Assembly (NCBI GenBank): GCA_036172665.1
Contig: CM069872.1
Span: 20,439,001 to 20,503,000, forward strand
Direction: 5' to 3'
Source: Prosopocoilus inquinatus
Lineage: Eukaryota; Arthropoda; Insecta; Coleoptera; Lucanidae
Length of the DNA: 64,000 nucleotides
The notes beneath the pieces were generated by a model. The model saw only the letters and a list, made by a program, of their open reading frames with translations. It searched no databases and was not told the DNA's origin. The stretch's first letter is position 1; each line of letters opens with the position of its first letter. Shown piece by piece: positions 21,501-63,160 of this stretch. Position numbers and translations under genes: made by a program.

Positions 21501-24500
21501 GAAGGTTTGTCAGATACAATCGCAAATATAATTTTCTGTTATGTATTGTTTTGCTCTAGGAAGTGAACGAAGTTGTACAGAAGGTTTACGGGGGTGAAAG
21601 ACCTGTTCCACTTTGGCTTGAAGACAGTGAGGAGCCGTCGACGTTGAACAGAATTTTATTTTCACTTGTGATACGTATACAGAGAATTCAGTTGACTGCT
21701 ACGACAGCTGGAAGTTCAGCTGTGCGACTAGAAACGGGAAAGAGTAAGATGACAAAAGAGTACCTAAGTGTTATTTGCGTAAATCGATTTTCATCTTATC
21801 TGTCTCAGATCCAGTTGTATTGGAATTGTCAAATCGAGTGCAGAATGTATCAGGGCCCACAAAAAGCAACACAGCGTCTCGTCTGTTTGGTAAAGCACAA
21901 GTCGACTTGAACTTGTCTTTGGGGCAGTTAATACGAAATGCTTTGTTCGAGGAAGCCGAAGCCGAGTTTCAACAGTTCGCTTTCTTTGATACGAGAATCG
22001 GACTCCGAAATGCTTTCCAGGTTAGTAAATTAAACAAAAAACACAAACAAAATTTTTCTAAAATATCTCCTTTGACATGAGAAACTATGATGATCTTCAA
22101 TATATCTACTGCCACCTGCCTAATGACCGATTTCTGCTCCTCCTGATAAATTTATTTGCCAGGTATTATCCTTGCAAACCATTGTATCGCTAATTCCGAG
22201 GATATTACCTAGCAGATAAATTTATCAAGAGGTGAAGAAATCGGGCCTGAGTCATAATAAGATTGTGCTGAGGAAATTAACGTACAGCACGGCCAGAAAC
22301 TCAATCATTAAGGGCATGGAGTTTTACTTAAACGCAAAAAAATAATTGAGTGCCATCTATCTTAACCAAAGACAAGGAGAGGACGAAAGAAAATCACTCA
22401 ATTTATGCAAGTCGTCCATTGTCAGCAAAACATTCACACACGTGTAAATGCTGCTAAGATACAAAATAAACCGGTTGTATACAGGATTATAACTAATTAA
22501 AGGTCCACCATGGGAATCTCTCGTAAACTATGAGAGACACAAAGATGGTTAAATTACAAAAAAGTTGCGCTATTAATTGATTACTAATTATTTAAATTTT
22601 TTCTTCATTGAAAATAGTTATATTACGTTGAAATATACATGAAAAATATAAAAATTCGAAAAGTACTTTTTCGTTTTTGGAACGATAAGACAATACATAA
22701 AATGTGAAGAAAAGTCTGGTAAAGTAAATATTTTCGAAAATATTTTCTTTTTGCAAAAATGCTCGGACAGAAAAGTTATTACTATAAATCTACATTTCAG
22801 TTCATTTATTTGCACAGTGGCACACCATTAAGATACTAAAACAACTTTATTTTTTTTAATGGAAACCTCTATTTTTATTACGAATTCCAAGCCGGCATAT
22901 TTTTCTACGTACAACTACAAAAAAAATATAGTCACATAAGAATCTTTTTGAAATAAATGTTCAAGTATTAATAAAGAAACAAAACAAATAGATGAAGTAA
23001 TATTTTGAATGCAGATTATCACATCAACGCTCATTATCATGAAATGTGAGAAAATTTTCGCTGTCTCTTCAAAGGAAATTATTAAAGATAAATGCAGGTG
23101 CACTGTGACTAACAAAATATTAGACTAAAATGTCAATGTCATTAACAATGTCAAAAATGCATCGTTTCATTGTTTAATAGTGAACGGGCCGTAATTTTAT
23201 ATTTATTTAATTTACTTCATTCAAAATTAAATATTTATTAAAACACTAGGTAAATGAAAATGGAGATTTATTAAGAAAAAAGAAATTTATATTGTACCCC
23301 AATGATTGCTGAAAATAAATAACCTGAAATGTAGGAATCGAGTTCGAGCGTTCTTGTAAAAACAAAATACTTTAGCAGATATTTAGGGTGTTCCAGACTT
23401 TTATCCTCAGTCTATAATAGAATTTATTTTACACTCCGTATAGAAAGTAGCAGGAAAAGGATAAACTACTGCTGCAACTTCCAATTCCTGAATGTGTATG
23501 TATTTATCTCACATGTTTGATCGGAGAAGTTTTATCAATTCTTCTTCTGTAATTATGACTCCTCTGTTGAAAGAAATGTTCCATATTTTTTTGTTTTTTT
23601 AAATTTGACACAATTACTAAAATTTTCTAGTTTGTTTAAATTCTTTAAAATTAATTTTTCGTTGATTTTTTGAAAAATATGATTTTCATGTCGAGAAAAT
23701 TCCACGAAGTAACCTACAACAAATAATAAATAAAAAGTCAGAGTGACGCAAAAACGCGCAAGTTTTTAAGTTTTATTATGAAAACACAAAGTGCATAGAA
23801 CATTTAAACATAGGTCTCCAACAGGTGATATTCGGAATTACTAAACAAAAAGTGAAAGATATAACAGGTGTAAAATATTTGTATGATTTGTACGATTATT
23901 TCTAAACTATAAACACAAAAATAATAATAATAGGTGAAACGATTAATTAAACATACCTTCCATATTTGATTACACAGTTCAGTTTTGAACAAACTCATTC
24001 AGAAGGAAAATATAATTAACAATGTTGCGATAAATTTATGGCGGGTATAATGCCATAACAATTAATATTGTAACGTTTTCTTATTGGTAATCTGGTTTTT
24101 ACCAAGAAGTAACGTATTAGGGGTTGCGTAGCTGAATTAATATAGGACAAAAAACATCAAGTACATTTATTAAAAGTACAAGATACACTTACATGTCAGA
24201 AGCACTATTACGGACGACATACATAGTTCTCGCACTATAATCAGATATCGATGACTTCTCTCTTGTTATCGGAAAATCTCTCGGTATATATGCCTGGAGT
24301 TGACCTACTTTCTGCTGCGTGGGCGATTGACGTGTAGCTCCGTGTTCTTGAAGCTTTCGATGATTCATTTTTCTCTATTGCCGGATTATTATGTAATTAC
24401 GTGCAAAGTTATCGATCAAGGTTTTTGTTTACACTGTATGGATCTCAAATAATTATTTAGATAATTATTTCTTCTGTTACAATATGACACGTTGTCTAGC

Positions 24501-27500: not shown

Positions 27501-30500
27501 CATTAATTAAATTGCCAATAGAAGAAGCTCCGCAAGTTAACATTAGACTTTTCTCATGTCATTGACACCACAGATTGTACCCCATGTTAAAATTATTTCA
27601 CCTGGTGGTAATCCCGCTGAGCTGTACCACAACAGAAAATGTGTCTTTGCCATATACGTGGGCTGCTGGAAAAGTTTCTGGAAACGGTATGAAAAAACGC
27701 TTATGAAATTTGGTAAACGGTATCATTGTTTTTCGAAGTATTCGTCTTTGACGTCAATACACTTTTGCATACGCTCGAACCAATTTCTAAAGCACGTTTT
27801 CCACTCTAAAGATGGTACCTCAGAAACCAGTGTCCGGAATGTTTCAACCGCTGCTTCAGCCGACGAAAATCGCTCACCACGCATTTTATTTTTCATATTT
27901 GGGAACAAAAAGAAATCATTAGGTGATAAATTAGGTGAATACGGACAATGAGTCATTAATTAAACATTTTTGTTGGACAAAAAATCAACTGTTTGACGGG
28001 CTGAGTGAGAGCTGGCGTTGTTATGATGGAGAATAATTCGTCGATTTCGATTGTTTCTTCTTATTTGATCGATGACTTCCGGCAAACAAATTGTAATATA
28101 CCGATCAGCATTCACGGTTTTTCGATCCTCTAAAGTCACGGTTGCTACATGTCCAGTTAAACCAAAGAAACAAGCAATCATTTCCTTCGCAGCACTGCGT
28201 GAACGGACAACTTTTGTTGGTTTTGGTTCATTTTGAAATACCCAAACGGTAGATTGTTGTTTACTTTCTCGCTCGTACGAATAGATCCACGTTTCGTCAC
28301 CAGTAACGATGTTATAAACTAAATTTGAACGACCTCCATTGAATTTCTTGAGCATTTCTTCGCACCATTTGACACGACCCTGCTTTAGCGCTTCTGTTAA
28401 ATTGTGTGGGATCCAACGACTGCAAAGCTTTCGTACGTTCAAATGATCAAGCAAAATCCGGTGTATTGTTTTCATGTCAATGCGTAAGGATGCTTGAATC
28501 TCACGGTATGTCACAAGTCGATCTCGCTCGAGCATTTCACGCACAGCATCTACATTAGTGGCAACAACAGATGTTGATGGACGACCTTCACGAAATTCGT
28601 CACTGAGAGAGGTACGTCTACTCTTGAATTCGACAAACCAATTATAAACACTGCTCTTTGATGGTGGTTCATCTCCAAAAGCCAAATGAAGCCGATCGAA
28701 GCATTGTTTTGGCGTTAAACCACATTTGAAATCGTAAAAAATCATGGCACGAAAATTTTCACGCGAGAATTCCATGTTTACACAAAATTGCTTTTTCTCA
28801 AATGCTGTACAAACAAAACAAGTTCACGTGGATAGAAACTGTCAATAGAATTATATGCGAAAAACGTCAAATTTTTAAAATATGACAGGTGATAAGCGGT
28901 AACAATTCTAGACCTACTAGATTCCAGAAAATTTTCCAGCCGCCCACGTATGTTGAAGTAATTCAACTGCACGAAAGTTTCCTTCCTCCCTTTCTTTTTT
29001 CCTTTTTCATTTTTAAAAATCACTAACTGCACTAATGCGAAGAATTTAAGATGTATTTATATATTTTGAGTTTCTAACCTTACACCACCTGACGCCATGC
29101 CGGACAGATGGTGTGAAAGTGGCAATTTTTCCATGTTGCCAAACGTAAACTCCAATTAGTTAATCAGAGATTAGCAGAATAGTTTTTTGTTTTGTGAAAC
29201 AGCATCAAATTTTTAACACTGATTAAACTTAACGGTTGATTAGTTAATCAACGCTTAGACAAAGCTTTGTGAAACCCGCCCTAAGTGGGCTGTGTATGTC
29301 TTATATGTCAGTCGCGCATTTTACTAAAATTAGTTTCAAAAATTTTCATGTTTTGTAATTAAAAAAAAAATTAAAATGGATAACCAGAATTATGTGGACA
29401 TCATTGAAGCATATTTTGAATGTGGAAGGAATGCTGCAGCTGCCTTGAGACTTTACAGAAATCGGTTTCTTAACAAATTACAACCAAGTGCTGATAAATA
29501 AATAAATAAAAATAATAAAAAAATTAAAAAAGTAAATAAATTGTAATGTAGATGTATTCAGAAGTAAAATTTGTAATAGAAAAAGCACATAAATATAGAG
29601 TGCAATTAAAAAAAAAAATAAGTTTGATGCGATCTGTTAAAAAATAGGCGTTGAAAATAAATTTATTGCAGGTCAGGTTAAACTGTTTTTAAAGCGATTT
29701 TGTTTGACGTATCATTTCTTAAAATAGGATAAAAAGTAAGGAAGTTACAGTATCAAAGGTTTTTCATATTCCACCTGGTGTAAACCAAGCATTAGTTACC
29801 TTGTATAAGTAATTACATTATTATTTGATATCGATTTTAATCCACGGCTGTATAAATTTGCTTCGATTAATTATTTGTAACTATGACATTTAGGATGAAA
29901 TTGTGGAAGGTGAAGACAAAGACGTCGTTCTCATAACTCTGAAAAGACCACTAATCTACATCCAGCCCCTCGCTGTCGACAAAGCCATTCTGGTCTGGCT
30001 GAACTACAAAAACGCTTACGATTACTGGAACGAAAAGCGTGCCAACTTAAACAAAGAGGTCCTAACCGCAACCCAGCAGGTCTACGAGAAATTCCAATTC
30101 GGCCAAATCACGAGCCAACTGGGCTCGCCGCACACCGGAACATTGTTTCTGCAATTAACAGTGGAAGATATGGGAATTTGCCTGCCTTTGCATCCGCTTC
30201 CGCTGGGTTCGTGGGGGCAGAGGAATATGTACGAGGAGAGCAGAGGTGCTGTCGTCGTTACTTTGGAGAACACCAGCATTGCGGCGTGCAGTTCGGGTTC
30301 ACTTGTAAGCAAAGGCAAGTTCTCGAACTTATGCTTGCGGTTCGCTGATGATTTTGAAACGTCACTCGATGATTGGAAGCCTGCAAGAGATGACACCACG
30401 AACCCGATGAACCTTTGCATCGTGAGCGACGGCACTTACGAGGTTTGCAGCCGGACTATTACAGGGAAACAACCTAACGGTAAACAGGTATTTGTTTTTA

Positions 30501-36500: not shown

Positions 36501-39500
36501 ATTATGCCACTTTCGTAATTCAAGAATTACATTAAAATTATTGATCTGGTTATCAAACAGTTTTATTAACATTTTCTTTTTGTTTTTAATAAGGAATTTG
36601 GGAAAGCCATTTTTAATATCTTTTAATAATTTTTATAATTTTTATTCCTAATAGAAGTCAATTTTCAACTTAAAATTAACTTTCCCAAATAGACCAACTA
36701 ATTTCATAACGATGTGCAGCAATAGAAACTTAATCGGAACCATAATATTTAAATAAAACATGAGTTACGAAATTGTATAATAAGTAAGTAGTTGCACACT
36801 GCTGCCCTCTATCGAAAGCAATCGGAGATGCCACAGAAGGCGGGGTTTATTTTTGTTTTACATTTCAAGGCTGGGGAATTTCCATTATGCGTAAAATTCT
36901 CCGACCTGGGGGCTCGTTCGGAAACTGAAAAAAAGCGCGCTTTGGGTAACATTCTTTCTCTCGTGTAAGTGATTTTGTTTACTTTTCTTTTGGTTTTAAA
37001 TGCCCAAAGTGCTCTTTCGTTACAGTTTTTGAACGCAACACTACTGTATAGGTAAACTGAGTGGTACTTGTAAGTACCACTCAGTTTAAAGATTGTCTTT
37101 TGAATGTATTCGAGAAACTCGGAAGGCGCGAGCAGTCATATTTACCACGATGTTTACATTTTTACTCTTTTGAAGTCGTGTTAACTTCCAATAAATCAGA
37201 GACAACCATGAGACGGATAACTCTCCTAGCGAATTTATCAGAGTTTATCAGATGTGCGTTATTTTTGTTTGTCACATATCTCTCTGGTATGCGTTGTTTT
37301 TGTCTTACGAAATAAAAGGTAGACGTAGGTGGCGCAGCTATAACATTTTTCGTAAGGCACTCGATCTCTGTCTAAGGACACAGGTACTGCCAACATATGG
37401 TTTTGACACTTGACAGTGGGTATTTGACCTTGAACAAGTGGGTTGTTAAAAATGACAAGCTGAATATTTTATGGAAATCAGTACGCAATTGTAACGAAAA
37501 TCATTTTAATTTCTGTTTTATTAACGACAAGAATAAGTTATATAATAAACAAGGAACAATTTTACAATAAATCTAAACGTTAACGGTGCGAATATGACAC
37601 AATAAACCGAAAAGTAACCAAAAAGCTTACGTAAGTATATTAGAAGCTTTCCAGGTAAAATATTAAGTTTACTTAAATCCTGAAACTATTTCAAGGCATA
37701 AATCTTTAAACGGTTGACCATATTAACAGAAGTTTACAGTAATTTAGCCGTTAACTTTGAAATTGAAAATTGTGGACTGATTGTAATTTTCCATCATGTT
37801 CCATGGGTAAGCTATTAGGTTCTGGATAATGGGACTTGGATAATAATTGGATTAAGAGAATTCCAAAAACATTTAGGATAAATATGAGGTTTAGGATTCA
37901 GTCCAGAAACCATAGGTAATACCTGACAAAAAAGTTACTTTTTAGGCAAAACTTTCCCATTTATTATGTCATACCGCTTCGTAGTCGCTTAACTTTACTA
38001 TAAATTTATAAACAGATAAAATAGCGACATCTTACAATCGCTTTTTGACCTGACATTGCAGTAGGATAGACAAATTGAAGCGGGATTTGCTCCTAATAAG
38101 TCCCTCATGCAAGGCGGCCATGCTTGCTGTCAAAGCATAATGAACGTTTTTAGAAAAATGTGCAAATTGTTTTTGATTGCAGTGAAAACCTCGAGCAGCC
38201 TGACTTGTTTTGTACTTGTGAAACATTGACACTTAGATATATTAATAACGCGGGCAGTCGGGGGGGGGGGGGGGGGGGGGGGGGCTCCGGGGTCGGAAGG
38301 GAGGGCGCGCCGGAACGTAATCTAAAACCGACGCGTTCGAACAGGGCGAGTCGAACACAATTTTGACCGTACGCGAGCGGAGGTAAATAGGTAATTAAAT
38401 GAATAAACGAGACTTAGGGTGTCAAAAAAATTGAGTTTTGTCGTGGCTCTTATAAACAATTGTAAAGTTAAATTTGGTAATATATTGAGTGTTTTTTCTG
38501 TAACTATATTCATATTGTGCAATGTATTATTATGGCATTGTCATATTTACATACAATCGCCCTCTACTTTCATCTTTCACTTTACAGTAAACAAATTCGT
38601 TTGAGCGAATAGAATTTTACCATTGAGTCGTACATACACTTCTATTGCATTTTTTAACTATTACACATATCATTCTATATTCTAGGAGTTTAATACTATA
38701 TTTGTTAAGTTTCCTAAATTTGTATGAATCTGAATAATTTTAATGAGTTAATTATTCGATCAATTATCATCAGTAAACTTATTATTTAAATGAAATTAAG
38801 TTATTTTAAATTTATTTCACTGTAAATTCTTACAATATTATATGATACCGTATAAAAAAGAATAACATACATTCATAACTGACATTAACATCATATTTGT
38901 TTTATTGAAACTTGTTTGCATATTCTGCCATGCATTGACATGTTTTTTTTTTATAACTGAACCTGGGAATATTTACCTTTTATGTTTAGAGTTAATAAAA
39001 TAAGTCACGGTATGTATAGATGCTTCATTTTAGGATCCGCAGAGAAACATAACACCATAAAAGTCATAGGTGTTTATACGTGATATCTCTTTATCACAAA
39101 GAACAAAAGGGTATCATAAAACAGAGATTCGGTAAAATGAAACATAATTTTTCTTGATGTCGAAAATATTTTACATGAATAGGTTTCTTGACATGTGAAC
39201 AAGACGTGTATGATAAAATTGAATTGAAAATATCAATATATTAACATTTATAAAACAAAGATGACGTGAAAAAATGTAAAATATAACGGAAATGCTTAAA
39301 TAGCATAATAGAAACCGCTTAAATAGCGACATCCTGCGATCGCTTCTGCTGACGAAGCCCCAAATAGGACTGAAACAGCTGTACAGAGGAACGGGACAAA
39401 ATAATTAGAATCAAAATTGTGAGGTCTTCTATTTACTTAAAAATAAATAAAATCGAACATATGTCCTAATTGTTATTATTTTCTTAAAATTATGTGAGCT

Positions 39501-42500
39501 TTCCGTATGGCAAAGCTTGTCGGTGAGCTAATAAATCACCCTGTATTTCATATTTACTAAAAATCTATTTATGTATTTCTCGTAATGAAAATTTTAGAAT
39601 CCACAGAAAACAAACTACAAACGAATAAAATTTTTGTGAAGTCAAACAAACCAGAAGTGTATAAAGGCAGAAATTTGGTATAATTATAATTTTTCAGATT
39701 AATTAACATCATCGATCCTTTATAGCAATTTAACATTTATATGTCTTTATAATATGATCTGAAATCCTGTTATTTAACAATATAAAATATTCTAATTAAA
39801 AAAAAACATTTTTTGTTCAATTTTTAAGTTAAAGCAAAAGAGAACAAACAAATTCGCCACCGCGTCCGCGTTCGCAACCGCGCGTCGCCTCAATAAATAC
39901 TCGGAACCAAATACTGGCAACGAAATTCAACAAACCATAAACATCTGCACCGGCCGGGGTTTAATAGGACCTAAGTAAACAACCCTCCTATCGGAGTGCG
40001 GAGAAAGTGTCTCTGTTCCTTAAGGTTCGAAATATATTAGGCCCGTTTCAATAAGGTTCAAATTCGAACCTTTTTATTGCTTTTCATTTCGAAACTTTTA
40101 AACATTAGTGTACGTCTCAGTGGTTGTCTCTGCTGTGGACCTTTCAGTTTTCGAAACTTCTTAAACCTCGTATATCAGATCCTCCGAGTGTCAATCTAAT
40201 GTATTTACTGTTTCCTATCTCTAAACTTTAAAAACTGAACAAACAAATTTTCTCTTCGCTGCGTGTTATACGTTATTTTTCTAAAAGCTAACATATCTTA
40301 ACAGCTAAGCATGACGATTCCTTTACAAAGCTGGAGCCAATACAAAAGGAAAAATTCTAAAATAACTGCTTTGAGGGGGCTATTGTGCTCGGGTCAGAAT
40401 TTATGACTCTTGCTAAGGCCCTCTGTGCAACTTTGAAAAGACGGCAATAACTCGGACGTTCCCCTTTCCGGTTAACATTTACTATCTTAAAATTCTAATG
40501 GCCGGTTGCACAAAGCTTCGTTCAATATTTAAGTTCCGATTAACTGTAATGAATGATTAAGGTCCGGTTTCACCATCACACTTTAACTTTAAACTTCGCT
40601 TTATTCCCATGGCAACAATTGCAAGGATAATTGTTTCCATAGGAATAAAAGTGGGCTTAAAGTTAAACTGTAATGGAGAAACCGGACCTAAATAGGAAAA
40701 CAACGGCATTTAACGACGATTAACTTAACGATGATTGATTACTAAACGGCTCGCTCTCTAATCGGTCGTCAAATAGTCTTAATGCTCCGTTAAATGTTTC
40801 ACAAAGCTCGATTAAGAGATAACGCTTTGTTTACTTCTGTCTAATCAGGCTTTAGATTAATCGATAAAATTCCAGCGATTAAAAAGTAACGAGTGAATTT
40901 TCCATAGTTATTATCAAGCTTTTTTGATATAAAAATTCCGCACATATATCTAAAAAATAATTATAATTTTATTTACAAATGTAACGTACCTTAAATATGA
41001 AAAATAATGACATTTCTGTACTTTTTACTCATTTGGTTTATTGATTAATTTTTATGACACTATGGAAATTATTTTCAAGAACAAACAATTCGAAATTAAT
41101 TCAAAATGTCTGCAACCTCACTTTCTTCTCTGACGATAAAGAAATGCCTCCTTAAGGTAGGATTCATTTTATAAGAGACAGAAATAATCCTTTTATGCCC
41201 GTTAGCGCCACTTTCACTTAAAATTGTAAGTCCCACTTAAATGGTTAATTGACACTTTTTCAATGACAGAAAGTGTCACTTAACCACTTAAGTAGGACTT
41301 AAAATTTTAAGTGAAAGTGGTGCAAACAGGCATTAATGATTTGGATGATAATGAATTTAAAGTTTCGTTTTTCCAAAGGAGTTATGGAACTCTTTGGTCC
41401 CACACTAGAACCTGCAACAAGCAAAAATAAATTTATTTTATGGTACAAATCAGTTGCTGATAAACTTACGTTATTATCTACTGAAATATTTCAACAGCTG
41501 ATTCCTGATACTTTCAGAAACCATCGATCCGTAGAATAATTCATCGTGTCACTCATTTTATTGCAAGGCAAAGCAAACAGTTAATTAAACTGCCAATAGA
41601 AGAAGCTCCGCAAGTTAACATTAGGCTTTTCTCATGTCATTGGCACCAAAGATTGTACCCCATGTTAAAATTATTTCACCTGATGGTTATCCCGCTGAGC
41701 TGTACCACAACAGAAAATGTGTCTGAGTTATGGAACTCTTTGGTCCCACACTAGAACCTGCAACAAGCAAAAATAAATTTATTTTATGGTACAAATCAGT
41801 TGCTGATAAACTTACGTTATTATCTACTGAAATATTTCAACAGCTGATTCCTGATACTTTCAGAAACCATCGATCCGTAGAATAATTCATCGTGTCACTC
41901 ATTTTATTGCAAGGCAAAGCAAACAGTTAATTAAACTGCCAATAGAAGAAGCTCCGCAAGTTAACATTAGGCTTTTCTCATGTCATTGGCACCAAAGATT
42001 GTACCCCATGTTAAAATTATTTCACCTGATGGTTATCCCGCTGAGCTGTACCACAACAGAAAATGTGTCTTTGCCACATATGTTCAAGTAATTCAACTGC
42101 ACTAAAGTTTCCTTCCTCCCTTTCTTTTTTCCTTTTTCATTTTTAAAAATCATTAACTGCACTAATGAGAAGAATTTAAGATGTATTTATTTATTTTGAG
42201 TTTCTAACCTCACACTACCTGATTGCAGACCTGACGCCATGCCGGACAGATTACTTTAAAGCGGTGTCAAAGTGGCAATTTTTCGATGTTGCCAAACGTA
42301 AACTCCAATTAATTAATCAGAGATTAACATAATAGTTTTTTGTTTTGTGAAACAGCATCAAATTTTTAACACTGATTAAACTTAACGGCTGATTAGTTAA
42401 TCAACGCTTTAACAAAGCTTTGCGAAACCGGCCATAAGAGTCTAGCATTGTTTAATATTTACAATCAAACAACAAGCAGAAACACGATTTTATTTACAAG

Positions 42501-44584: not shown

Positions 44585-47500
44585 CTTTATTTGCAATAAT
44601 GGTGAACAGCAATATAATAATGGTGAACAGCCTTTTGCATCGTCAATAAAAAAAAACATACCTTGACAAATTTCAGGTACTAATATAACATTACAAACAT
44701 ATTAAAAAATATTTAAAAAGGACATTATAAAAACATATTAAAATTTGAAACAGTCGTCATGCAAATGGAAGAATTCATCTACAGAGTATATGACATTTTT
44801 GATAAAAAGTTTCTTTATAGTTTTTTTTAAAACAGTATTGATTCATATTTTTAATCAAGGGTGGAAGTTTGTTAAACATTTTAATACACAAGTGGTTGGT
44901 ACTTAATTGGGAAGCTTTTACACGATGATAAGGTATTATAAAAGTGTCCTGATTTCTTGTGTTATAAGAATGGACGTCCTTGTTGGAGGTGAATTGATTT
45001 TCTGAAGCTTTCATATACATCAAACAGTTTATTATAAATACACTGGGGATTGTTAATATTTCGTTTTGTTTGAAGAGTTCTCTGCAGCTAGTCCGCCTCG
45101 ATGCACCGGATAAAATTCGCACTGCTTGTTTTTGTTGTAAGAAGATTTTCTGAGCGTCGCTTGCATTGCCCCACAAAAGGATACCGTACGTGGCCCGAGA
45201 ATGGAAGTTGGCATAGTAGGATATTTTGACTGCTTCATACGAAGCACATTGTTTTATTTTCCGTATTGTGTAGATCGCAGTTGCTAGTTGCTTTTGTAAT
45301 TGCATAATCTGATAATCCCATCGTGTTTTATTATCAAAGTGGAGTCCTAAAAATTTTATATGAGCTTTATCAGTCTGTGTATGGGTTGATAAAAGAAGAG
45401 TTTGAGTTTTCTTGTCGTTAAGTTTTAAGGAGTTGCTGCTAAACCATTGTTTTGCTTCAGCGATTGCTTGATCTGATTTTCTTATTGTTTCTTCTTTGGT
45501 TTTTGAAATAGATAATAAAGTTGTGTCGTCTGCAAATAAACAGATTTTTTCTACGGATACATTTCTTGGCAAATCATTTATATAAATTAGGAATAGAATT
45601 GGCCCTAATATGGATCCTTGCGGAACTCCTTTCGTGTTTGGGACGCTATCGCCGTCTTTTTGATTCCAACTGTACAAAATGTAAACAAAAACTCTCTAAA
45701 AAATTTAATTTTTTTTTTGGAATCCTGACGTGATAGAAAAAAACTAATAACAGATTCTTTTTTATAATGTTGAAATCTTTGAAGAGCACATAGTCTTATC
45801 TCATCCGCAAAAAAATATATATTTTTTCGCAGGCTAGTGTAATCGGCCGATACCGATATACATACCGATACATACGGTATCGGCCGATATTATATCGGTA
45901 AGTAACTCTCATAGCATATCTCAATAAAGAAGGTGTACATCTCACAGGAGTAGTTACAATGAAACATGAATTAAAGACGAACTTGAAAAATCGTTTCAAA
46001 GACATGTTTTCCAACGATTACTTGACGTTTGCAACATTCCTTGATCCACGCTTCAAAGTAGTTTTTTTAACGATGATATTTACAACAAAATATGCGTAGG
46101 TCTTAAGCTTGCTATAATTGAAAAATCACGGCATTTAGTAGTAACATCTCATTTAGAACACGAACACATGCCTGTTATAAGTGACGATAGTGATGATAAT
46201 GATGATGTGCCATTAGCGAAACTTTCTGGAATAGACATGGATTTTATATCTACCGTAAATGAAAGTAATAGTCATCAATTATTCTGGAAATTATATGAAG
46301 ACGTAGTTGGGGAAGACACTAGTAAATATTTAAATACAAATACAAATGTCACATTAAATGAAGAACCGTTATCGGTTAAAAAAAAAAGAAATCAATTGCT
46401 ACAAGGAGATTCCAGTAATTTCCAGAACAGACAATCCTTTTCAGTGGTGGGCTAATAAGAGAGACATTTTTCCTTTATTGTATTCACAAGCGATGATTTA
46501 CTTAACTGCTCCAGCAGGAAGCATATGCAGTGAACAATTATTTTCCCAAGCAGGAAATGTATACCAAGCAACCCGCAATAGACTTACTCCAGATAGAGCA
46601 GAAAATTTAATATTTCTGCACTTTAATTTGCCAAAATTAAAATACAATTATTAATAAAAAAAAACAATCAGTTGTGTTTAAACTGTTTAGAAATATGTCT
46701 AAAGTGTTTATAAATGATCCCCTATTAGGTCCATACTACATTCTTCATTCTCACATTTCTTGTTTCAAATTAAACTGTTATTATCTGTAAAAACCAATGT
46801 GAATATTTTAATAAAAATTATAGTTACTAATATTTTTTTATCTATTAGTTATTATTTATTATATCAGTCATATCGGCAAACGCAGTGGCCGATAAGAATT
46901 ATCGGTTTCCTGGCCGATATGGCCGATATACTGATAGATTTATCGGTATCGGTCGATCCCTAGTATAGACTTATCAAGACATCATTTCTGCACCTCACAC
47001 AAACAGATTGTTTCATTGATATTAAAAAAAAGTCGTAGACAGGATATTAAATGAAAATAAAAATGAAACAAGTAATATGTAATGCCATGCTCAATTAAAA
47101 TGAGTACACTCAGTAGTTTCAAGGCCCTTTTAACAGTTGTGTGGAAATAACTGACTTTGGGGTAGATTATATTCATAAGGATGAAGTTTGCAATGCAGGA
47201 GTGTCGTTTTTATTGAGCATGATAGTAGATACAATTGAAAATTGTAAAAATTAATTATTTCAAGGTAATAAGCGATGACAGCCCTCTCCAGTCGGGGCAG
47301 GAATCGCCAGGAAATTTCAACGAGTCAACCGAATTTCCCTTGCTGTACAACCCCACACTCGACGAAAGTTTTTACAGTAGATCTTTCGAGAAATCAGAAG
47401 AATCCCGCATCGACAAGGCCTTTAAACGACAGGACAGCAAACCCGAGGCTTTCTTAACCAATGTCCCCCAAGCCGGTGACTTCACCAACGATTTCATCTC

Positions 47501-50500: not shown

Positions 50501-53500
50501 AACGAAGGACTTTCACAGCGAAGGTCGGCTCAGCATTGGTTCTACCGGCCACAAGAACTTATATATTGGTGTAGGTCTGGGCGGCTCGGGTTTGGATGCG
50601 AAAGGGGGCATCGTTGGTGGAAATATAGAAATTGCAAACATTGATACGTACAGTAAGTACATATTAATTTTTTCCTGACGAAGCTGTTAATCGGTATTGA
50701 AACGTACTTTTCCGTTTTATTTAAAAACTTAAAACCATTTTCATAATCAGACTTTAAGGACCGTTTTCATAAGCAGATTTTAAATTTAACGCTATTTTAA
50801 CCTAAAAAAAATACATTTGTTTCCCTATTCTTAAAGTGACTTTAAATTAAAGCTTCCTTAAAGTCTGATTATGAAAACGGCCATAAGCAAGGTTTAGTTT
50901 AAAGTCACTTTAAGAATAGGGAAACAAATGTATTTTTTTAGGTTAAAGTAACTTTAGATCTAAAGTCCTATTATGAAATCGGCCCTTAGGAATTTTATTA
51001 TAAAATACAGAGTGATTCACGGAACTCGTTCGTTAGAAGTTTAAGAACTTGCCCTTTGAATTTCTATATCATATTTTGCTGGTATATGTTAACGATAATG
51101 GTCTGCTTAAATATAATGTTCTCAACTTTCGGTCACTTCCGCTTATACCGGAAGTTGTTGCCAACTTTCTTATTTTTATATGGAATATTCCATTTTCTTA
51201 TTGCATTTTTAAATTCCTGATGAAATTCTAAAAATATTTTATCTAACAGGGGATACAAGAAGAATTAACCGGTTCAGACGCTTTCTTACTTGCAGTATTA
51301 CCTTTTTTATGATACTGCCATCTGTCTGCAATAAAAACCATGATGTCAATATTTTTTAACCTGTAGCAGGCGACAGTAACGTGCTTTTCAGATCATGCCT
51401 AGTTTTACACTTAATTGTCTACCGGCTGGTTAAAAACTAACTTCTGTTCAAACTAATTTCAACCGTCGAAAAGTCATCAGTTTTTTAACTAGAATACCCA
51501 GTATATTTTTAAACCATGGGAATCAGAATTAAATATTCGTTCGAATTGTATTAGCATTCCTTACGCCCATCTCTTTCCTTTCTGTTTCTATTCATGATTT
51601 TCTCTTTGACACATCATTTTTTCACTTTTTGGTATCATTCCTGAATGATATGATATGAAAATTTAATAAACTAATGGCCGGTTTCACAAAGCTTCGTTAA
51701 ATATGTAAGTTCCGATTAACTCTGTAACGAATGATTAAATGGGAAAACAATTGCATTTAACGATGCTTAAATTAACGATGATTACTAAACGGCTCGCTCT
51801 GTAATCGGTCGTTAAATAGTCTAAATGCTCCGTTAAGTTTTTCACAAAGCTCGATTAAGAGATAACGCTTCGTTTACTTCTGTCTAATCAGGCGTTAGAT
51901 TAATCGATAGAATTCCAGCGATTAAAAGTAACGAATGAATTTTCCATAGTTATTATGAAGCTTTTTTGATATAAAAATTCCACACATATATCTAAAAAAT
52001 AATTATAATTTTATTTAAAAATGTAACGTACCTTAAATATGAAAAATAATGACATTTCTGTACTTTTTACTCACTTGGTTTATTGATTAATTTTTATGAC
52101 AATATTTCAGAAATTATTTTCAACAACTAACAATTCAAAATTATTTCAGAATGTCTGCAACCTCACTTTCTTCTCTGACGATAACGAAATGCCTTCTTAA
52201 GGTAGAATTCATTTTATAAGAGACAGAAATAATCTTTGTAATGATTTGGATGATAATGAATTTAACGTTTCGCTTTTCCAAAGGAGTTATGGAACTCTTT
52301 GGTCCCACACTAGAACCTGCAACAAGCAAAAATAAATTTATTTTATGGTACAAATCAGTTGCTGATAAACTTACGTTGTTATCCACTGAAATATTTCAAC
52401 AGCTGATTCTTGATACTTTCAGAAACCATCGATACTTAGAATAATTCATCGTGTCACTCATTTTATTGCAAGGCAAAGCAAACAGTTAATTAAACTGCCA
52501 ATAGAAGAAGCTCCGCAAATTAACGTTAGGCTTTTCTCATATCATTGGCACCACAGATTGTACCCCATGTTAAAATTATTTCACCTGGTGGTAATCCCGC
52601 TGAGCTGTACTACAACAGAAACTGTGTCTTTGCCATATGTGTTCAAGTAATTCAACTACACTAAAGTTTCCTTCCTCCCTTTCCTTTTTCCTTTTTCATT
52701 TTTAAAAATCATTAACTGCACTAATGCGAAGAATTTAAGATGTATTTATTTATTATGAGTTTCTAACCTCACACTACCTGACTGCAGGCCAGACGCCATG
52801 CCGGACAGATTACTTTAAAGCGGTGTCAAAGTGACAATTTTTAGATGTTGCCAAACGTAAACTCCAATTAGTTAATCAGAGATTAACGTAATAGATTTTT
52901 GTTTTGTGAAACAGCATCAAATTTTTAACACTGATTAAACTTAACGGTTGATTAGTTAATCAACGCTTTAACAAAGCTTTGTGAAACCGGCCAATAGTCT
53001 TTTAGTGGACACTACAACTGACAGTTCTATTTTTTATTGGGAACAAATGGTACATGCAAAATTATAAAACTTTTTTTAATGTCAAAACATACCTCCTTAA
53101 CGATAGGAAAAACAATTGAATAAAAAAAATCATACGTTGGCCGTGGACCGTACGGATCACACGAATTCGCAAATACTTGGTTAATAAAATATTGTGATCT
53201 ATCTTAACGAATGCATTAGAAAAATTGTATATAGGGTGTTGAAAAATTCGTTTGCCAAAATTCTAGGGCAAGTAAAGGAGGCCAAAATAAGACTTTTTTG
53301 TTATATAACATAGGGTCGGAAATTAATAATTACTTTTTGAGACTGTAAAAATAACTTAATATGACAGAATACTGAAGAAATTATTAACGTACCTAAACGA
53401 GGTAATTAAATAAATAATTTTTTTGTTAAAATATTAAAGGAGACTGGTTTAAGAGATAATTGAAATTAACCTCCGCCCACAATAATTTTTATATACGTAG

Positions 53501-56500
53501 ATACGTATTTCGGTAGCTAAGCTGCCATCTTCAGCACGCTACCAACTTAAAAGCACTAAGAAATGTTTAAAAACAACCTAATCACACTGACAAAATCATA
53601 AAAATGTTAAACCTAACATTTTCTGTTCACACACAACGACCATAAGTGGTTTACCCGAATTATAAATGAAAAAATGAATCTGTTGCTAACACGTTTCGGG
53701 GAATGAGAGAAAAGAAACCAGCGAGGAAAAAGAGATAGAATAAAATTATCCAATCTGGCGAAATGTGACATAAGCCTCTTCGTATCAGATTTGAATGTTT
53801 TGGGGTCATGGGAGCGATCACCGAAACGAACAAGAAATGTCGCAACACGCTTGGAAAGAGTGACAAAAAATAAATTCATACAGACTGGCGCGGCGTCTCC
53901 CCGGAATAAACCAGAATGCAATAAAATGCCCTTAACTTTTATGAAAATAAAACGAGCGTATTTCTGACTCGAATCGATACTAGGAGAAATTCATAAGAAA
54001 GAAATATTTAAAATAGAATTCCGGATAATTACATTTTTAATTGTGTGCGTTTCCAGCTTGAGGCGGTAATAAAAGACGATACGCTCCAGTTTCGGACGCG
54101 GTGTAATCACCCGTCAGTAAAAGAAAGATTCGACTCCGGTAAATGCGCTGTACAGGGTGGGCCAAATTTGACACTTAAAGGGAAACACCTGTTTTAAGAA
54201 GAGTTAGACAAAAACCGACCTCGGTGTCTGGAGCTCGATTTTTATGACAAGTTCAATGGTAAAAACCGCATTTCGATATCTTGAACCGTTTAGGCGCTAG
54301 GGGGCGTTTTTCAAAATTCTGCGATTTCTAAAAACCTTTATAACTTTTTTGTTTATTAAGATTTTTAATTTCTGTGAAAACTTCTTTAAGGCACTTTTTT
54401 TATGCAGAATTCACTGCCCTAAATTACTTTTTTCTAGAGTGTTCATTATTTGAGATATAAGCCAGAACTTTAATTTTTTATATGGAACACCTTTATATTT
54501 TGACATTTTTGAAAAGAGCAAAAAATTCTGTTTACGAAAACATAAAACACTTGATATTTTAATCAAACAGTTTTTGAGATACATGGCATTCAAGTTTTAA
54601 TTAAAAGTTTAATGTTTTTTGCAACAATCAAGTAGGCTACGAATGACAATAAATATGTTTTATATTTAAAGGGCTATGAACAAATATTGTTTTGTTATTA
54701 ACAAATATGTTTAATTAATTAACGATAAATTAAAAGTGTTCAAATTGTCCACCATTTTGCTGCAAACATAATCGGCACCGTTTTCTTACAGCTTGAACTG
54801 AGTTTACCAATTCAAGGGCACGCAGAGAATCAAAAGCTTGTAGCACCGCTGCCTCTAATTCCTCTCTTGAATTGGGAGACCGTTTGAAAACCAAATCCTT
54901 TATCCTTCCCCACAAGAAAAAATCCATTGGCGTAAGGTACGTTATAAATATAGGTACCAATAATTCTGCCTCGGAAAATGCCTGCCCATACATTGAAACT
55001 GTAACGCCCTTGGTTTCTCCTTTCAACAGTAATATGAGGGTTTTGTCTAGACCAAGTATAACAATTATATCTATTACAGACCCCTGCACTGCTTATGTTG
55101 GCTTCATCGGTCCAAATACAATTTAGGAAAAAATCATCATATTCTTCGCACTTTCTCAAGAACCACTGAGAAAATTCCACACGATCATTAAAATCTTCGG
55201 GATGGAGGTGTTGCATTTTTCTTGTGCGGTAAGGATGGAATTTTTCTCTCTTTAAAATCCGTCTTGCAGAAGTTCTTGCTAAGCCAGATGTTTCTTCCAA
55301 CTGTCGCGTGGAAAGGTTTGGATTATTTTCGATTAGTCCCAAAACTACGATCTTCTCTAATTCTTTACATCTTCTTTGAGATTCGTAATTTTTGGGTGTT
55401 GGTCGTTTAAATGACCCAAAATTTATTAAATTGTTTTTCAACCTGAAGAAAATATCTCGAAAGGGTTGTCTTCTTTCAGGATATTGCTCGTAGTAAAGAT
55501 TACATGCTTCTTCTATATTCTCACCAACTTCTATAAAACACTTTAACATGTCGTACTTTTCGTAGTTTTCGTACATTTTTACTTATTTTCATACCTTGCA
55601 CAAGTGTATCTTTAGAAACGCTGCAGTACAAAATAAATGCAAATGCATGGTCAAATTTTAACGGCAGCCTACCAAAATTACATAAAAAAACTTAAATTGT
55701 TTAACATATAAAATAGCGACATCTTACTATCGCTTTTTGACCTAACATTGCAGTAGGATAGACAAATTGAAGCGGGATTTGCTACTGCAATGTTAGGTCA
55801 AAAAGCGATAGTAAGATGTCGCTATTTTATATGTTCATCACTCTTACATCGCAATTGCGAATAAATTGGGCAAGTCGTTTTTGGTCTGCAGTGGGAATGT
55901 CGAGCTACGTTTCTGCTGAAGAAGCCCCAAGCAGGGCTGAAACAGCTGTCCAGAGGCTGCTCGAGGTTCTCACTGCAATCAAAAACGATTTGCACAAAAT
56001 TTTTCTAAAATCTTTCATTATGCTTTGACAGCAAGCATGGCCGCCTTGCATGGGGGACTCATTAGGAGCAAATCCCGCTTCAATTTGTCTATCCTACTGC
56101 AATGTTAGGTCAAAAAGCGATAGTAAGATGTCGCTATTTTATATGTTCATCACTCTTACATCGCAATTGCGAATAAATTGGGCAAGTCGTTTTTGGTCTG
56201 CAGTGGGAATGTCGAGCTACGTTTCTGCTGAAGAAGCCCCAAGCAGGGCTGAAACAGCTGTCCAGAGGCTGCTCGAGGTTCTCACTGCAATCAAAAACGA
56301 TTTGCACAAAAAATTTTTTTAAATTGTTTAGTTATTGTCATCCATAGCCTACTTGATTGTTGCAAAAAACATTAAACTTTTAATTAAAACTTGAATGCCA
56401 TGCATCTCAAAAACTGTTTGATTAAAATATCAAGTGTTTTATGTTTTCGTAAACAGAATTTTTTGCTCTTTTCAAAAATGTAAAAATATAAAGGGTGTTC

Positions 56501-59500
56501 CACATAAAAAATTAAAGTTCTGGCTTATATCTCAAATAATGAACACTCTAGAAAAAAGTAATTTAGGGCAGTGAATTCTGCATAAAAAGAGTGCCTTAAA
56601 GAAGTTTTCACAGAAATTAAAAATCTTAATAAACAAAAAAGTTATAAAGGTTTTTAGAAATCGCAGAATTTTGAAAAACGCCCCCTAGCGCCTAAACGGT
56701 TCAAGATATCGAAATGCGGTTTTTACCATTGAACTTGTCATAAAAATCGAGCTCCAGACACCGAGGTCGGTTTTTGGCTAACTCTTCTAAAAACAGGTGT
56801 TTCCCTTTAAAAGTGTCAAATTTGGCCCACCCTGTACAGGGCGTCCCAAAATAAAAGATAAATTTGAAACTGTAACAAGTTTTACAGCATATGAAATTAG
56901 GTGATAATTTAATTTTTCAAAATGGAACTCCTTACTACCTAATGAAAATATCATATGCTGTCAAAATGTTGCTAGTTGTCTTGCTGTTGCTTCTCGTTAG
57001 TCGTCGAGTCGAGTAGAGTCGTCAGTCTGGACTTGTTAACGAGAAGCAATAAAAGAAATCCGAATGACGCGGTTCCAACCGGAAGCAAAAAACAAAACGA
57101 TATAATTTTAAAGATTTTGCAGTATTACTAATTTCTACAGATTTCTCTAATTTATCGGTAATGTTTTAAAGTTTTACGTTGAAGGTGTTATTATCAGACA
57201 GCACGGTTTTTACAGTGAAATGACAAATTTTTCAAAAATTTTATTTTAGTAAAACATTATAAAAGTGTGGGCTACTTCTGTTATCCATTTCAGTTCATAT
57301 TAGAGAAGAACCCGACATCGAACCTGACCACACAGTCGGCTTGCGCTTGTACGCTTTGGAGCTACGGTTGGATTACATGGCCACTTCGGTGTTAATGTGC
57401 AGAGTGAGCGATCTTAATGTCAACCTACGAGATGAGTGGCGCTTATATAGGGCAACCACAAATGCTTCGGTCACCCGGAGGTGATTCAATTTCAATTTAA
57501 ATACCTCGCATTGAATTCTCCATTACAGACCTGCCAGCATCTTCATACACGGCGATCTAACCTGGAATCAACTGCAGATAATGATGTCGAAGTCATCGAC
57601 GGCTGATCTACTGAAGATGTTCAACAAGCTCGAAGAATTTTTCTCGCAGCAGTTCAACAACAGCAAGCGAGCTTTCAGTGGGTTCTCCCAGGGGCATCGC
57701 CCTCCGAGGGTCACCCCACAAAAAAGTGCGCTGTTTTTTATTTGGTTTGAAGCAGTAAAACTGGATGGTCGTTTTGTTTTAGGTAAGGACTCAAAAATTG
57801 AATTGCAGGCTAGCAGCTTGCAGGACGCGCGACATCACAGGCACTGGCAGAAAGACTTGGCACAAGTTGCGGGGTTACAATTGACCACGATGCATGTGCC
57901 GTTGCCACAGTTTGGAACTGTTCTGGGAGGAACCATGGAGTTGCACGGAAATAACATTTCGCTAGCCTGCTTTCATGGTATTAATTTCAAGAGCAAGTCG
58001 TGGGCTCTTTTTAGTTTACGAGAGCCATCTATTACTTTCAATACCGAAGCTCAGGAAATACCATCAACCACAGGTATGACTCTAAAAGCCAAATACAGGG
58101 TGTTCTTTAAATCTGTAACGTATCGCCATAAATGGCAACGATTGAACTCATATGTCCTTAACAGAGAGTTAATAATATTCGAGAAAAATGCATTGGTAAA
58201 TTTTCGCCAAACCATTTCAGAACTGCTGGCATACCTAAGGAGTGTAAGTGGCTAAGCTCTCGCGGACGCGACTGCCTGTTTGAACGACGACACGAAAATA
58301 GGTCAGTCGGTCAGTGTTTATCGTGGTATAACCTTGTGCCTGAACCCTGTCGTGAACAAACATATGTTTGATTCGTATGATGACCTGCCGGAAGTCTCAC
58401 AGCCATTTGGTAAATTTCTGCGTGCGGAAGGAAACGAATTTTGAAAACTTTCGGTTTACATGATTTCATATTCTTCTTCACGAAATATTAAAAAAGAATC
58501 GATCGAACAAATAACAGATTCAATTACTTCGATTACGAAATCTTCCGGTCAATCAACATTTTAAACCCGCCTGGATTTATTAAAAGAATATAACCTCACT
58601 CCAAGTAATTACATTTTTAAGTATTTTCAAATTGCAGGCCGACGATTACAATTACTGTACGAAAAATGCGCCTTATAATTGCGGATGAGTTAAATAATCT
58701 CATCACCGTCGTCCATTAATTTTTTGTGCAAATCGTTTTTGATTGCAGTGAAAACCTCGAGCAACCTCTAGACACCTGTTTCAGCCCTGCTTGAGGCTTC
58801 TTCAGCAGAGACGTAGCTCGACATTTCCACTGCAAACAAAAACGACTTGTGCAATTTATTTGCAATTGCGATGTAAGAGTGATGAACAGATAAAATAGCG
58901 ATATCTTACTATCGCTTTTTGACCTGACATTGCAGTAGGATAGACAAATTGAAGCGGGATTTGCTCCTAATAAGTCCCCCATGCAAGGCGGCCATGCTCT
59001 GTACAGAGGCTGCTCGAGGTTTTCACTGCAATCAAAAACGATTTGCACAAAAAATTTTTCTATATAATTTTTTTCTTCAGAAAGTGTAAGTATCACGGTT
59101 AGCTACATACACTGTTCGGCACAATTAAATTACATTGGCATTTAACAATTGACAATTAGTTAATTGTAGTAATCGTAGAAACTCGCAATTAACAATTAAT
59201 TAATTGGAATCGTAGAGACTCGTAATTAACAATTAATTCTAATAGTACAAACTCGCAATTAATTATTAATTAGCGGTCATTCTACCATTCCACGCGAACG
59301 GACATTCAAACATTTTCATCAAATTTGAAAATGCTACGTAAACTGAAGATTACTTTACCTGTGAACAAATTTAAAGTACGCTTTAAAAAATGAATCAAAG
59401 TTCTTGATTAAAATCCGTGTCCAATATTTCGAAACGTATCAATACGATATTTCAGTACGTAACGGTAACCGATACTCGACACTTATCGAAAATCGGATAC

Positions 59501-61339: not shown

Positions 61340-63160
61340 TTATCTAGAATTTAAAAAAAAAAGCTTATTAACAGTAAAAATAAGCCATCTCTTCCTGCGG
61401 AACTTGATCATGTACATGACATAAATAAACATTTTATGAACAAGGCTGTACTACCTGAAGGAGATTTGGATAGTATAATCAGTTCTTATAATATTATTAG
61501 TTCAGAATTCAGTGAAAGTTTTTCATTTACTGGAGTTACTGAGCATATAGTTGCCAAGATTTAGCTTAAATTTTCTAGTACAGCTTACGGGGCTGATAAT
61601 TTCAATATTGATTTATTGCGTTTTTGCTGTCCTTTTCTTTTGCCAGTATTTACTCACATAATTAATCATTGGATAATTTACGGTGTCTTTCCGAAAATCT
61701 GGAAAGAGGCACCATTATCCAAAATTAAAAATCCTAAATCTTTTAATGATATCCGACCTATCAGTATACTGGCAGTTCTCTCTAAACTGTTGGAAAGGAT
61801 CATTTATAATCAACTCAACTATTATCTCAGTTCACGATTTGATTCCTGGAAAACAGTCAGGTTCTCGGCAGCATTCCTGTTGTGCGAGTGCACTGACCAC
61901 CATAACTGACGACATTGTAGCAGCTCTTGATGACAATAAATACGTATTATTGATTTTACTAGACTATTCAAAAGCTTTTGACCTAATTAATCACAAAATA
62001 ATGCTAGCAATTCTAAAATGTATCGGCTTAAGTCAGAGTGCTTTGAATTTTTTTAATAATTATCTGGTGGGTAGATTCCAGAGAGTGTTTTACAATGGTG
62101 TGCTTTCTAAACGTCTCGAAATTCATCGAGGCGTACCTCAACGGTCAATTTTAGGTCCATTGTTATTCTGTTTATATACCTTTAGGTTGCCTAAAGTTCT
62201 TAAACATTGTTGTTATCACTTGTATGCGGATGACACACAGTTGAATTACGCTTTTAATGCCGATGCAGTTGGTAATGCTTGCTCATATATAAATGAAGAC
62301 TTAAAAAACTTAGTTAACATTTCAAAACAACACTGTCTGCAACTAAATCCAGCAAAAACTCAAGTTATGTTATTTGGGGGCAAAGGTTCTCGCGTGGATG
62401 TTGCTACTGTAGTGAATTTACGATTGGGAAATCACTCTTTGTCACTGACTGATTGTTCAAAGAATTTAGGTTTGTTCATGGCCGTGGATATCAAATTTAC
62501 TCGACATGTTACTTAGAACTGATTAAAAGGGCTTTTGCCAGTATTAAGTTGATTTATGTAAATAGACACCTTCTCTCAAAAAACGCTAAATATATGTTGT
62601 GTGAATCTTTAGTGTCATCCCACTTTAATTACTGTGACACTGTATATGGCCCGTTTTTAAATTATTCTGATGTCACTAGAATACAGACAGTCCAAAATGT
62701 ATCCGACGCAGACAACATATTTCTCATAAACTTATTGAATGAAGATGGCTAAATATGAAAGAAAGAAGATACTTACACTCTGCGCAATTTTACCATAAAA
62801 TTTGTTATATAAAAGTCCGCCATACTTATACAATAAGATCACATTCCGGACGGATGTTCATAACATTAATATTCGCTATCGAGGTCTGCTGTCTATACCA
62901 AAACATAGAGTTCTTTAAGTGCTCCTTTAGCTATAGGATAGTTAATGTTATGAATGCCCTGCCGAGAGAGTTTTTAAAACTGAAACCATCAAAATTTGTG
63001 AAAGAATTAAAGCAAAAGCTTCTTCGTGACCATAACGACCGCAGCAATCAAATTACATATTAATTGCTGTAATGTAAACTGCTGCATAAGTGTAAATTTA
63101 GTACACCATAGATTACTTTAGTATACCTTTAGGTTAGTATGTTTGGTGAAATGGAGTAGA
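61340..63160 (+). mobile_element. 5'-truncated LINE (CR1/L2/Jockey-like) in the last intron
   Basis: Plus-strand RT copy without an endonuclease domain. Reads from about 61390 to a stop near 63064, then about 100 bp of 3' tail. Different family from the LINE at 44552-45680. Confidence 0.85.
61616..63063 (+). pseudogene. LINE reverse transcriptase with frameshifts
   Basis: Pieces in order: IKNPKSFNDIRPISILAVLS (fingers), DNKYVLLILLDYSKAFDLIN, RGVPQRSILGPLLFCLY, YHLYADDTQLNYAFN (catalytic YADD), LQLNPAKTQVMLFG, SLVSSHFNYCDTVYGPFL, and a C-terminal end NVMNALPREFLKLKPSKFVK. At least three frame changes (near 61850, 62480 and 62752), so a dead copy. Confidence 0.9.

Follow-up and report, generated by a model that had tools for sequence, protein, structure and literature searches.

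The systems most closely comparable to the repeat family analysed here are the metazoan retrozymes and the Penelope-like elements. Metazoan retrozymes, as characterized in PMC7229834, carry a type I hammerhead in tandem units of 170-400 nt, have a GC content under 45-50%, are flanked by target duplications of more than 4 bp where these occur and count insects among their hosts. The same account covers the axolotl ribozyme HHR_Amex1, which has a helix III of one bp with a palindromic tetraloop and cuts well only as a dimer, and it leaves the inserter of animal retrozymes open, naming Penelope-like elements just as a strong candidate (PMC7229834); their role as retrozyme helpers is proposed both there and in the review PMC7761336. 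Penelope hammerheads are described in that review as minimal, without helix III or loop contacts. For the Penelope-like enzyme of Anolis, PMC11167929 reports that both strands of AT-rich targets are cut and extended from two internal RNA starts non-homologous to the cut DNA, that in vitro mainly unprocessed RNA is used and ribozyme cleavage is dispensable, and that the element carries its hammerhead at the junction of pseudo-LTR (pLTR) and ORF. Rotifer Penelope elements may end in an inverted pLTR and have 8-10-bp duplications, according to PMC3846280, where some Penelope families are described as having mostly direct pLTRs only, solo pLTRs and pLTRs around unrelated sequence are reported, and palindromes at inverted joins are read as self-priming on an antisense template.

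The family described here resembles the non-LTR retrozymes of metazoans (Cervera and de la Pena 2020) in its type I hammerhead, its unit size of 312 nt and its low GC content (0.436), and also in its tandem units (one of eight insertions), self-paired predicted circle and target duplications. Likened by description, its helix III is of the same type as that of HHR_Amex1, whose unit measures 330 nt. With Penelope-like elements it shares an inverted front unit (five of seven insertions), tandem units, a hammerhead, AT-rich targets, target duplications, extension of both strands and two internal starts (12 of 12 copies, as judged from DNA ends). Unlike the metazoan retrozymes portrayed in PMC7229834, it has head-to-head inverts in five of seven insertions, two fixed starts and a helix I of about 40 bp. 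Unlike Penelope-like elements, it lacks a GIY-YIG or reverse-transcriptase gene, its duplications measure 12-13 rather than 8-10 bp, and its start sites lie about 140 nt apart where Penelope-like elements have a 30-40-nt tail. The pDo500 satellite of Dolichopoda cave crickets is likewise an insect repeat with a hammerhead, but it is a satellite of 463-505 bp and is not described as short duplicated inserts in the accounts consulted (PMC2837043, PMC2808323). By analogy with both retrozymes and Penelope-like elements, we infer, with a probability of roughly 0.6, that the family is a non-autonomous retrozyme of the metazoan type, with a 312-nt unit, inserted by a Penelope-like reverse transcriptase with two-ended copying. 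Retrozymes of this kind are already known; the insertion anatomy may be new for them, as a limited search of the retrozyme literature, in which the mentions of inverted repeats consulted relate to back-splicing and viroids, yielded no account of two-start, head-to-head insertion. Exact patterns gave no match in viral_contigs and genome_contigs, and blastn with the unit gave none in plasmids or phages, but as these collections are not animal genomes, such an absence of homologues says little about novelty.

Throughout, the window refers to the whole 64-kb stretch of DNA that was analysed. The initial annotation had reported two direct hammerhead copies exactly 312 bp apart within it, and this proved correct: the arrangement CTGAAGA - AGCCC(CAAGCA)GGGCT - GAAA - C(AGCT)G - TC occurs twice at precisely that spacing, starting at 55916 and 56228, and the two cores (55916-55950 and 56228-56262, both inside 55704-56318) are identical. 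The core pattern CTGANGA-N16-GAAAC-N4-GTH, whose spacing was fitted to these two copies, has seven matches in the 64-kb window, found by pattern search, and none in 100 shuffles:

4816-4850, minus strand: core pattern match 1
5116-5150, plus strand: core pattern match 2
10213-10247, minus strand: core pattern match 3
39349-39383, plus strand: core pattern match 4
55916-55950, plus strand: core pattern match 5
56228-56262, plus strand: core pattern match 6
58771-58805, minus strand: core pattern match 7

The 312-nt unit contains what defines a type I hammerhead, namely the core CUGANGA / GAAA / NUH, helices I-III and an open helix I. The annotation had proposed a search with the Rfam type I model (Hammerhead_1, RF00163), the outcome of which was mixed: the whole model can be aligned at two places (23.8 and 25.0 bits), but both scores, the best obtained, fall below the gathering score of 34 bits, at which no hammerhead is found anywhere in the window. 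When 81 isolated bases are searched, Hammerhead_1 is recovered at 55910-55956 (23.8 bits, E 3e-4), while a permissive search of all 64 kb lists 39343-39389 as its sole hammerhead (25.0 bits, E 0.1) and a search of 615 bases lists the two units at 55.7 kb only as HH9 (14.5 bits, E 1.7). The alignment at 55.9 kb matches the model in its core bases, and the free position of CUGANGA is occupied by A; in that at 39.35 kb, A stands as the cut-site base. The core of this decayed copy at 39343-39389 (CTGACGA, loop CAAATA) is nearer the Rfam type I consensus than those of the young copies, and the copy perhaps represents an older subfamily. Apart from these hammerheads, the best of the 40 and 18 Rfam matches listed in the 64-kb and 615-base searches were mostly sub-threshold ones in which long inverted repeats resemble miRNA families, and they were disregarded.

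The long helix I that had been claimed for the ribozyme is present in the predicted fold, where the 129-nt segment reaches -73.1 kcal/mol (z -9.6) and none of 200 shuffles is equally stable. Helix I extends by way of an internal loop, the loop CAAGCA caps a stem II of 5 bp (AGCCC/GGGCU), and helix III consists of one C-G pair closed by the palindromic AGCU. In nearest-neighbour terms the lowest-energy fold is nevertheless one with GCUG/CAGC pairing across the core, favoured over the hammerhead form by about 5-7 kcal/mol, which either counts against the hammerhead or gives reason to expect it to act as a dimer. Covariation was dropped as proof of the fold, the copies being too few and too alike: among six ribozyme copies (five distinct), one of 47 stem pairs shows a double change (G-C to A-U), 205 of 500 shuffles do as well, and pairing stands at 97.0% against 96.7% when shuffled. 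Folded as a circle, the 312-nt unit at 55.7 kb, the only one so modelled, has a predicted energy of -112.1 kcal/mol (z -7.4 over 60 shuffles), and its sole unpaired runs of at least 8 nt, at unit positions 48-69 and 186-210, contain both of the start clusters discussed below; by comparison, 8.7% of 12-nt arcs on the predicted circle are equally open. The unit length is a multiple of three, and when the circle is read in sense, one frame has a single stop, leaving 103 codons open. A 161-aa open frame over the copy at 5.2 kb (4738-5223, minus strand) contains SSYVSAEEAPSRAETAVQRL, which we take to be a shadow of the ribozyme.

Eight insertions of the family, occupying about 2.5 of the 64 kb, are identified in the window by nhmmer, and all counts given here rest on these eight insertions of a single window. 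With the unit numbered from the expected cut (position 1 = 55951, position 312 = 56262), seven of them can be dissected cleanly, yielding 12 copies of the 312-nt RNA that were primed antisense, the eighth, at 39.35 kb, being decayed. The insertions and their parts are as follows, with stretches of the unit given in unit positions:

4636-5205, no strand assigned: copy at 5.2 kb; antisense 199-1-312-about 160, sense 131-312-1-60; two hammerheads in opposite orientations; 12-bp duplication TAAAAGTTTACT
10157-10351, minus strand: copy at 10.2 kb; antisense 200-176, sense 191-312-1-57; one hammerhead; 13-bp duplication AATAAAAATTAAT
18764-19030, minus strand: copy at 18.7 kb; antisense 197-1-312-299, sense 1-60; 12-bp duplication TTTAAAAAATAT
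38008-38201, no strand assigned: copy at 38.0 kb; single antisense copy 200-4
39321-39389, plus strand: decayed copy at 39.35 kb; antisense 189-165, sense 270-6; core CTGACGA, loop CAAATA, cut-site base A
55692-55703, no strand assigned: left target-site duplication TTAAATTGTTTA of the insertion at 55.7 kb, from flank comparison
55704-56318: insertion at 55.7 kb as a whole; antisense 197-114, sense 144-312-1-312-1-54
55704-55786, minus strand: its inverted head, about the first 80 bases; antisense unit 197 to about 114, from dissection
55782-56318, plus strand: its sense part, unit 144-312, 1-312 and 1 to 54, with two direct ribozyme units; 99.6% over 537
55870-55993, plus strand: hammerhead 1 with long helix I; core 55916-55950, expected cut after 55950
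56182-56305, plus strand: hammerhead 2 with long helix I; core 56228-56262, expected cut after 56262
56319-56330, no strand assigned: right target-site duplication TTAAATTGTTTA, from flank comparison
58720-59064, minus strand: copy at 58.7 kb; antisense 57-1-312-308 joined to sense 84-312-1-49 (join 84/308); one hammerhead
60253-60456, minus strand: copy at 60.25 kb; single antisense copy 200-1-312-302

The limits first given for the element, 55704 and 56318, are exact, with TTAAATTGTTTA flanking both sides, and every place named as holding a related copy does hold a family member, except that the copies near 18.8, 38.0 and 60.25 kb (E 7e-63, 8e-49 and 3e-50) are partial and lack the full ribozyme. 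The term tandem element fits the insertion at 55.7 kb, the only one of the eight with two direct units, but in five of the seven insertions that could be dissected cleanly, two copies are joined head to head, one of them inverted. These inversions, together with the inverted head of about 80 bases at 55.7 kb, emerged from the dissection and go beyond the initial annotation, whose broader claim of a dispersed, hammerhead-bearing retroelement family is well supported by the motif, the fold, the dispersed copies and the target duplications. Adjoining copies overlap by 0-4 nt at their joins, as judged by eye, and the join at 18.7 kb coincides with the expected cut site. Three weak blastn matches to the unit, at 22047-22072 (26 bp, E 0.003), 10864-10834 (E 0.11) and 57242-57219 (E 0.40), were not taken as copies.

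One of the key features of the insertions is the constancy of their starts. All 12 copies in the seven insertions start, as read from DNA ends, at unit positions 49-60 or 197-200 (199, 60, 200, 57, 197, 60, 197, 54, 49, 57, 200 and 200), and these starts of cDNA on sense RNA account for each outer end where two copies are joined (five inserts) and for one of the two outer ends where an insert consists of a single copy. Two points with a radius of 6 nt on the 312-nt circle cover the 12 starts, something that the best of 100 random sets achieved only with a radius of 27. The site at 49-60 serves both ends of the insertion at 58.7 kb. The decayed insertion was left out of this count; its start would be 189. 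Next to each start the flank overlaps the unit by at most a few bases, again by eye, and the same kind of inspection shows AUUUU-(A)-UCU immediately ahead of both start sites in the RNA. The longest exact matches between the flanks of the same seven insertions, the one at 39.35 kb having been left out here as well, are 12 bp at 5.2 kb, 13 at 10.2 kb, 12 at 18.7 kb, 12 at 55.7 kb, 9 at 58.7 kb, 7 at 60.25 kb and 4 at 38.0 kb. Among 2000 random pairs, two matched over at least 11 bp and 12 over at least 9 bp, and 42 mispaired flanks gave 9 bp at most. Target duplications of 12-13 bp are thus firm in four of seven insertions, and a convincing one is missing from the three at 38.0 kb, at 58.7 kb, where 9 bp is within the range of mispaired flanks, and at 60.25 kb, where 7 bp is at chance level.

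A second informative feature is the behaviour of the copies at the expected cut site, which ten of the 12 reach; eight of these ten continue past it, and two end at positions 1 and 4. In three cases the read-through amounts to only 5, 11 and 14 nt, but in five it exceeds 100 nt, which is possible on a circle or an uncut multimer but not on a linear monomer that was cut at both ends. Most of the RNA that served as template thus appears to have been either circular or a multimer left uncut. Either form accounts equally well for the read-through, and the multimer is favoured by the behaviour of the Anolis enzyme, which works in vitro mainly on uncut RNA and does not need the ribozyme. One copy at 5.2 kb exceeds the unit length, and one at 55.7 kb runs for about 540 nt. 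The two direct units at 55.7 kb show no difference at the 126 positions of the ribozyme segment and differ at two of 222 aligned bases, both near the changing tail, while between insertions (the four with a full segment) the ribozyme segment differs at 6-13 of 125-126 positions. This identity favours a single template molecule going round, but tandem transcripts from a single young locus would explain it equally well. For the insertion at 5.2 kb a single template cannot be claimed, since its arms differ at five of 127 positions. There is a hint only that copies halt at the ribozyme cut site: five of 12 copy ends lie no more than 14 nt away (binomial p 0.003), but this width was picked post hoc, and an unbiased scan for copy ends near the site gives p 0.11.

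The fixed starts, head-to-head joins, target duplications and cut-site read-through, all of which, like the ribozyme core, can be read off the DNA itself, suggest copying in the Penelope manner, begun at two fixed points of an RNA that was closed or repeated. Several steps can be envisaged. Transcripts of tandem units would arise, for example, from the host intron in which the copy at 55.7 kb lies in sense orientation. The type I hammerheads would then cleave these transcripts; since helix III consists of one bp and a palindromic AGCU loop, they would probably act as dimers, and a host ligase would presumably close the cut units into 312-nt circles. A Penelope-like reverse transcriptase may then make cuts 12-13 bp apart in the two strands of an AT-rich target, whereupon either cut end could prime on the RNA at an open loop adjoining the ribozyme rod, at unit 49-60 or 197-200. 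From there a copy would extend for 25 to about 540 nt along the RNA, and two copies would be joined head to head with an overlap of 0-4 nt. Whether circles are themselves the template is a more tentative matter, and we regard it as possible, though doubtful, that 312-nt ribozyme circles serve directly, with both cut ends of the target annealing to the two open loops and cDNAs running round, in some cases more than once, before they join head to head. If so, the family would preserve in the genome the traces of circular-RNA retrotransposition carried out by a Penelope-like enzyme, in which the RNA fold sets the starts. The copy ends and joins provide a countable signature (two starts, head-to-head joins, 12-13-bp duplications and read-through of the cut site), which is checkable both genome-wide and in vitro.

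Twin priming yields target duplications, short overlaps and inserts whose front part is inverted, much as seen here, and two RVT_1 fragments lie in the window; the ribozyme could accordingly be real and the element nevertheless moved by a LINE, its inversions being those of ordinary twin priming. We consider this improbable, as LINE inversions are a minority of inserts, whereas all five two-copy inserts are inverted; moreover, there are two fixed internal starts, one of which is used at both ends at 58.7 kb, and a poly-A tail is absent from the insert ends inspected. Unlikely, but deserving of more weight, is the proposal that the unit is the pseudo-LTR of a deleted Penelope-like element, which lost its gene and kept its own hammerhead, making this a family of solo pLTRs and no retrozyme at all. 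Penelope elements do have inverted ends and target duplications according to PMC3846280, which also reports pLTRs that stand alone or surround unrelated sequence, and the Anolis element has its hammerhead at the pLTR-ORF junction (PMC11167929). However, the Penelope hammerheads surveyed in PMC7761336 are minimal, whereas that of the 312-nt unit combines a 5-bp stem II with a long helix I containing an internal loop, although its helix III is minimal too, and an enzyme fragment was not found in the 37 of 45 window frames scanned.

The inversions could conceivably also stem from self-priming or template switching of a single cDNA, as proposed for the palindromic joins of rotifer Penelope elements (PMC3846280), and the join at 18.7 kb does adjoin the palindrome CAGCTG. 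Such an origin has little to recommend it, since it leaves unexplained why both outer ends fall at two fixed sites in all five two-copy inserts, and since the sense arm passes the start of the antisense arm at 55.7, 5.2 and 10.2 kb. The chance is similarly slight that the 312-bp tandem at 55.7 kb, with no difference between its units in the ribozyme segment, is one unit duplicated erroneously during assembly, a notion compatible with any of the other readings: there is another exact tandem in the window (346 bp, 41379-42070), but the inverted head, changed tail and duplication at 55.7 kb are as an insert predicts, and the insertion at 5.2 kb independently has one copy longer than a unit. Scarcely credible is a fold-back, MITE-like DNA transposon with a mere resemblance to a hammerhead; inverted repeats, short dispersed copies and further hairpin elements in the window (e.g. 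41208-41320) would suit it, but the outer ends are of both kinds (60 and 200), each insert has a different inner join and the ribozyme core is kept at all seven places.

With respect to their genomic setting, frames matching a bridge-like lipid transfer protein 1 (BLTP1) gene, with Pfam BLTP1_M and BLTP1_C, extend over 7430-58255 on the plus strand; their best named match is to Choristoneura fumiferana (66%), and the homology points to an arthropod, probably an insect. Five of the eight insertions (10.2, 18.7, 38.0, 39.35 and 55.7 kb) are probably intronic, because they lie inside the BLTP1 span yet outside its frames, and the insertion at 55.7 kb is in the sense orientation with the gene. Those at 5.2, 58.7 and 60.25 kb lie just beyond the span. 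A Penelope-like gene (GIY-YIG or telomerase-like RT) was not found among the 37 of 45 stop-to-stop window frames of at least 100 aa that were scanned, and the 615-bp insert at 55.7 kb is too small to hold one.

The window contains a variety of other repeats as well. The exact 346-bp tandem duplication at 41379-42070 (100%) is either very recent or an assembly artefact. MITE-like long hairpins at 41208-41320 (113 bp) and 50812-50932 (121 bp) attract sub-threshold matches to miRNA families, some of which are also attracted by stretches at 59533-59861 and by hairpin-rich repeats with TCCGTTACG units at 9012-9603. The copy at 38.0 kb ends about 60 bp away from a run of 25 G (38260-38284). Further remains include a mariner-like element with a Mos1 HTH (27960-28823, minus strand), a DUF4817 region with a sub-threshold Tc3-type HTH (54830-55582, minus strand), RVT_1 fragments at 44775-45695 (minus strand) and 61677-62516 (plus strand), and a YqaJ-domain fragment at 13880-14236 (plus strand).
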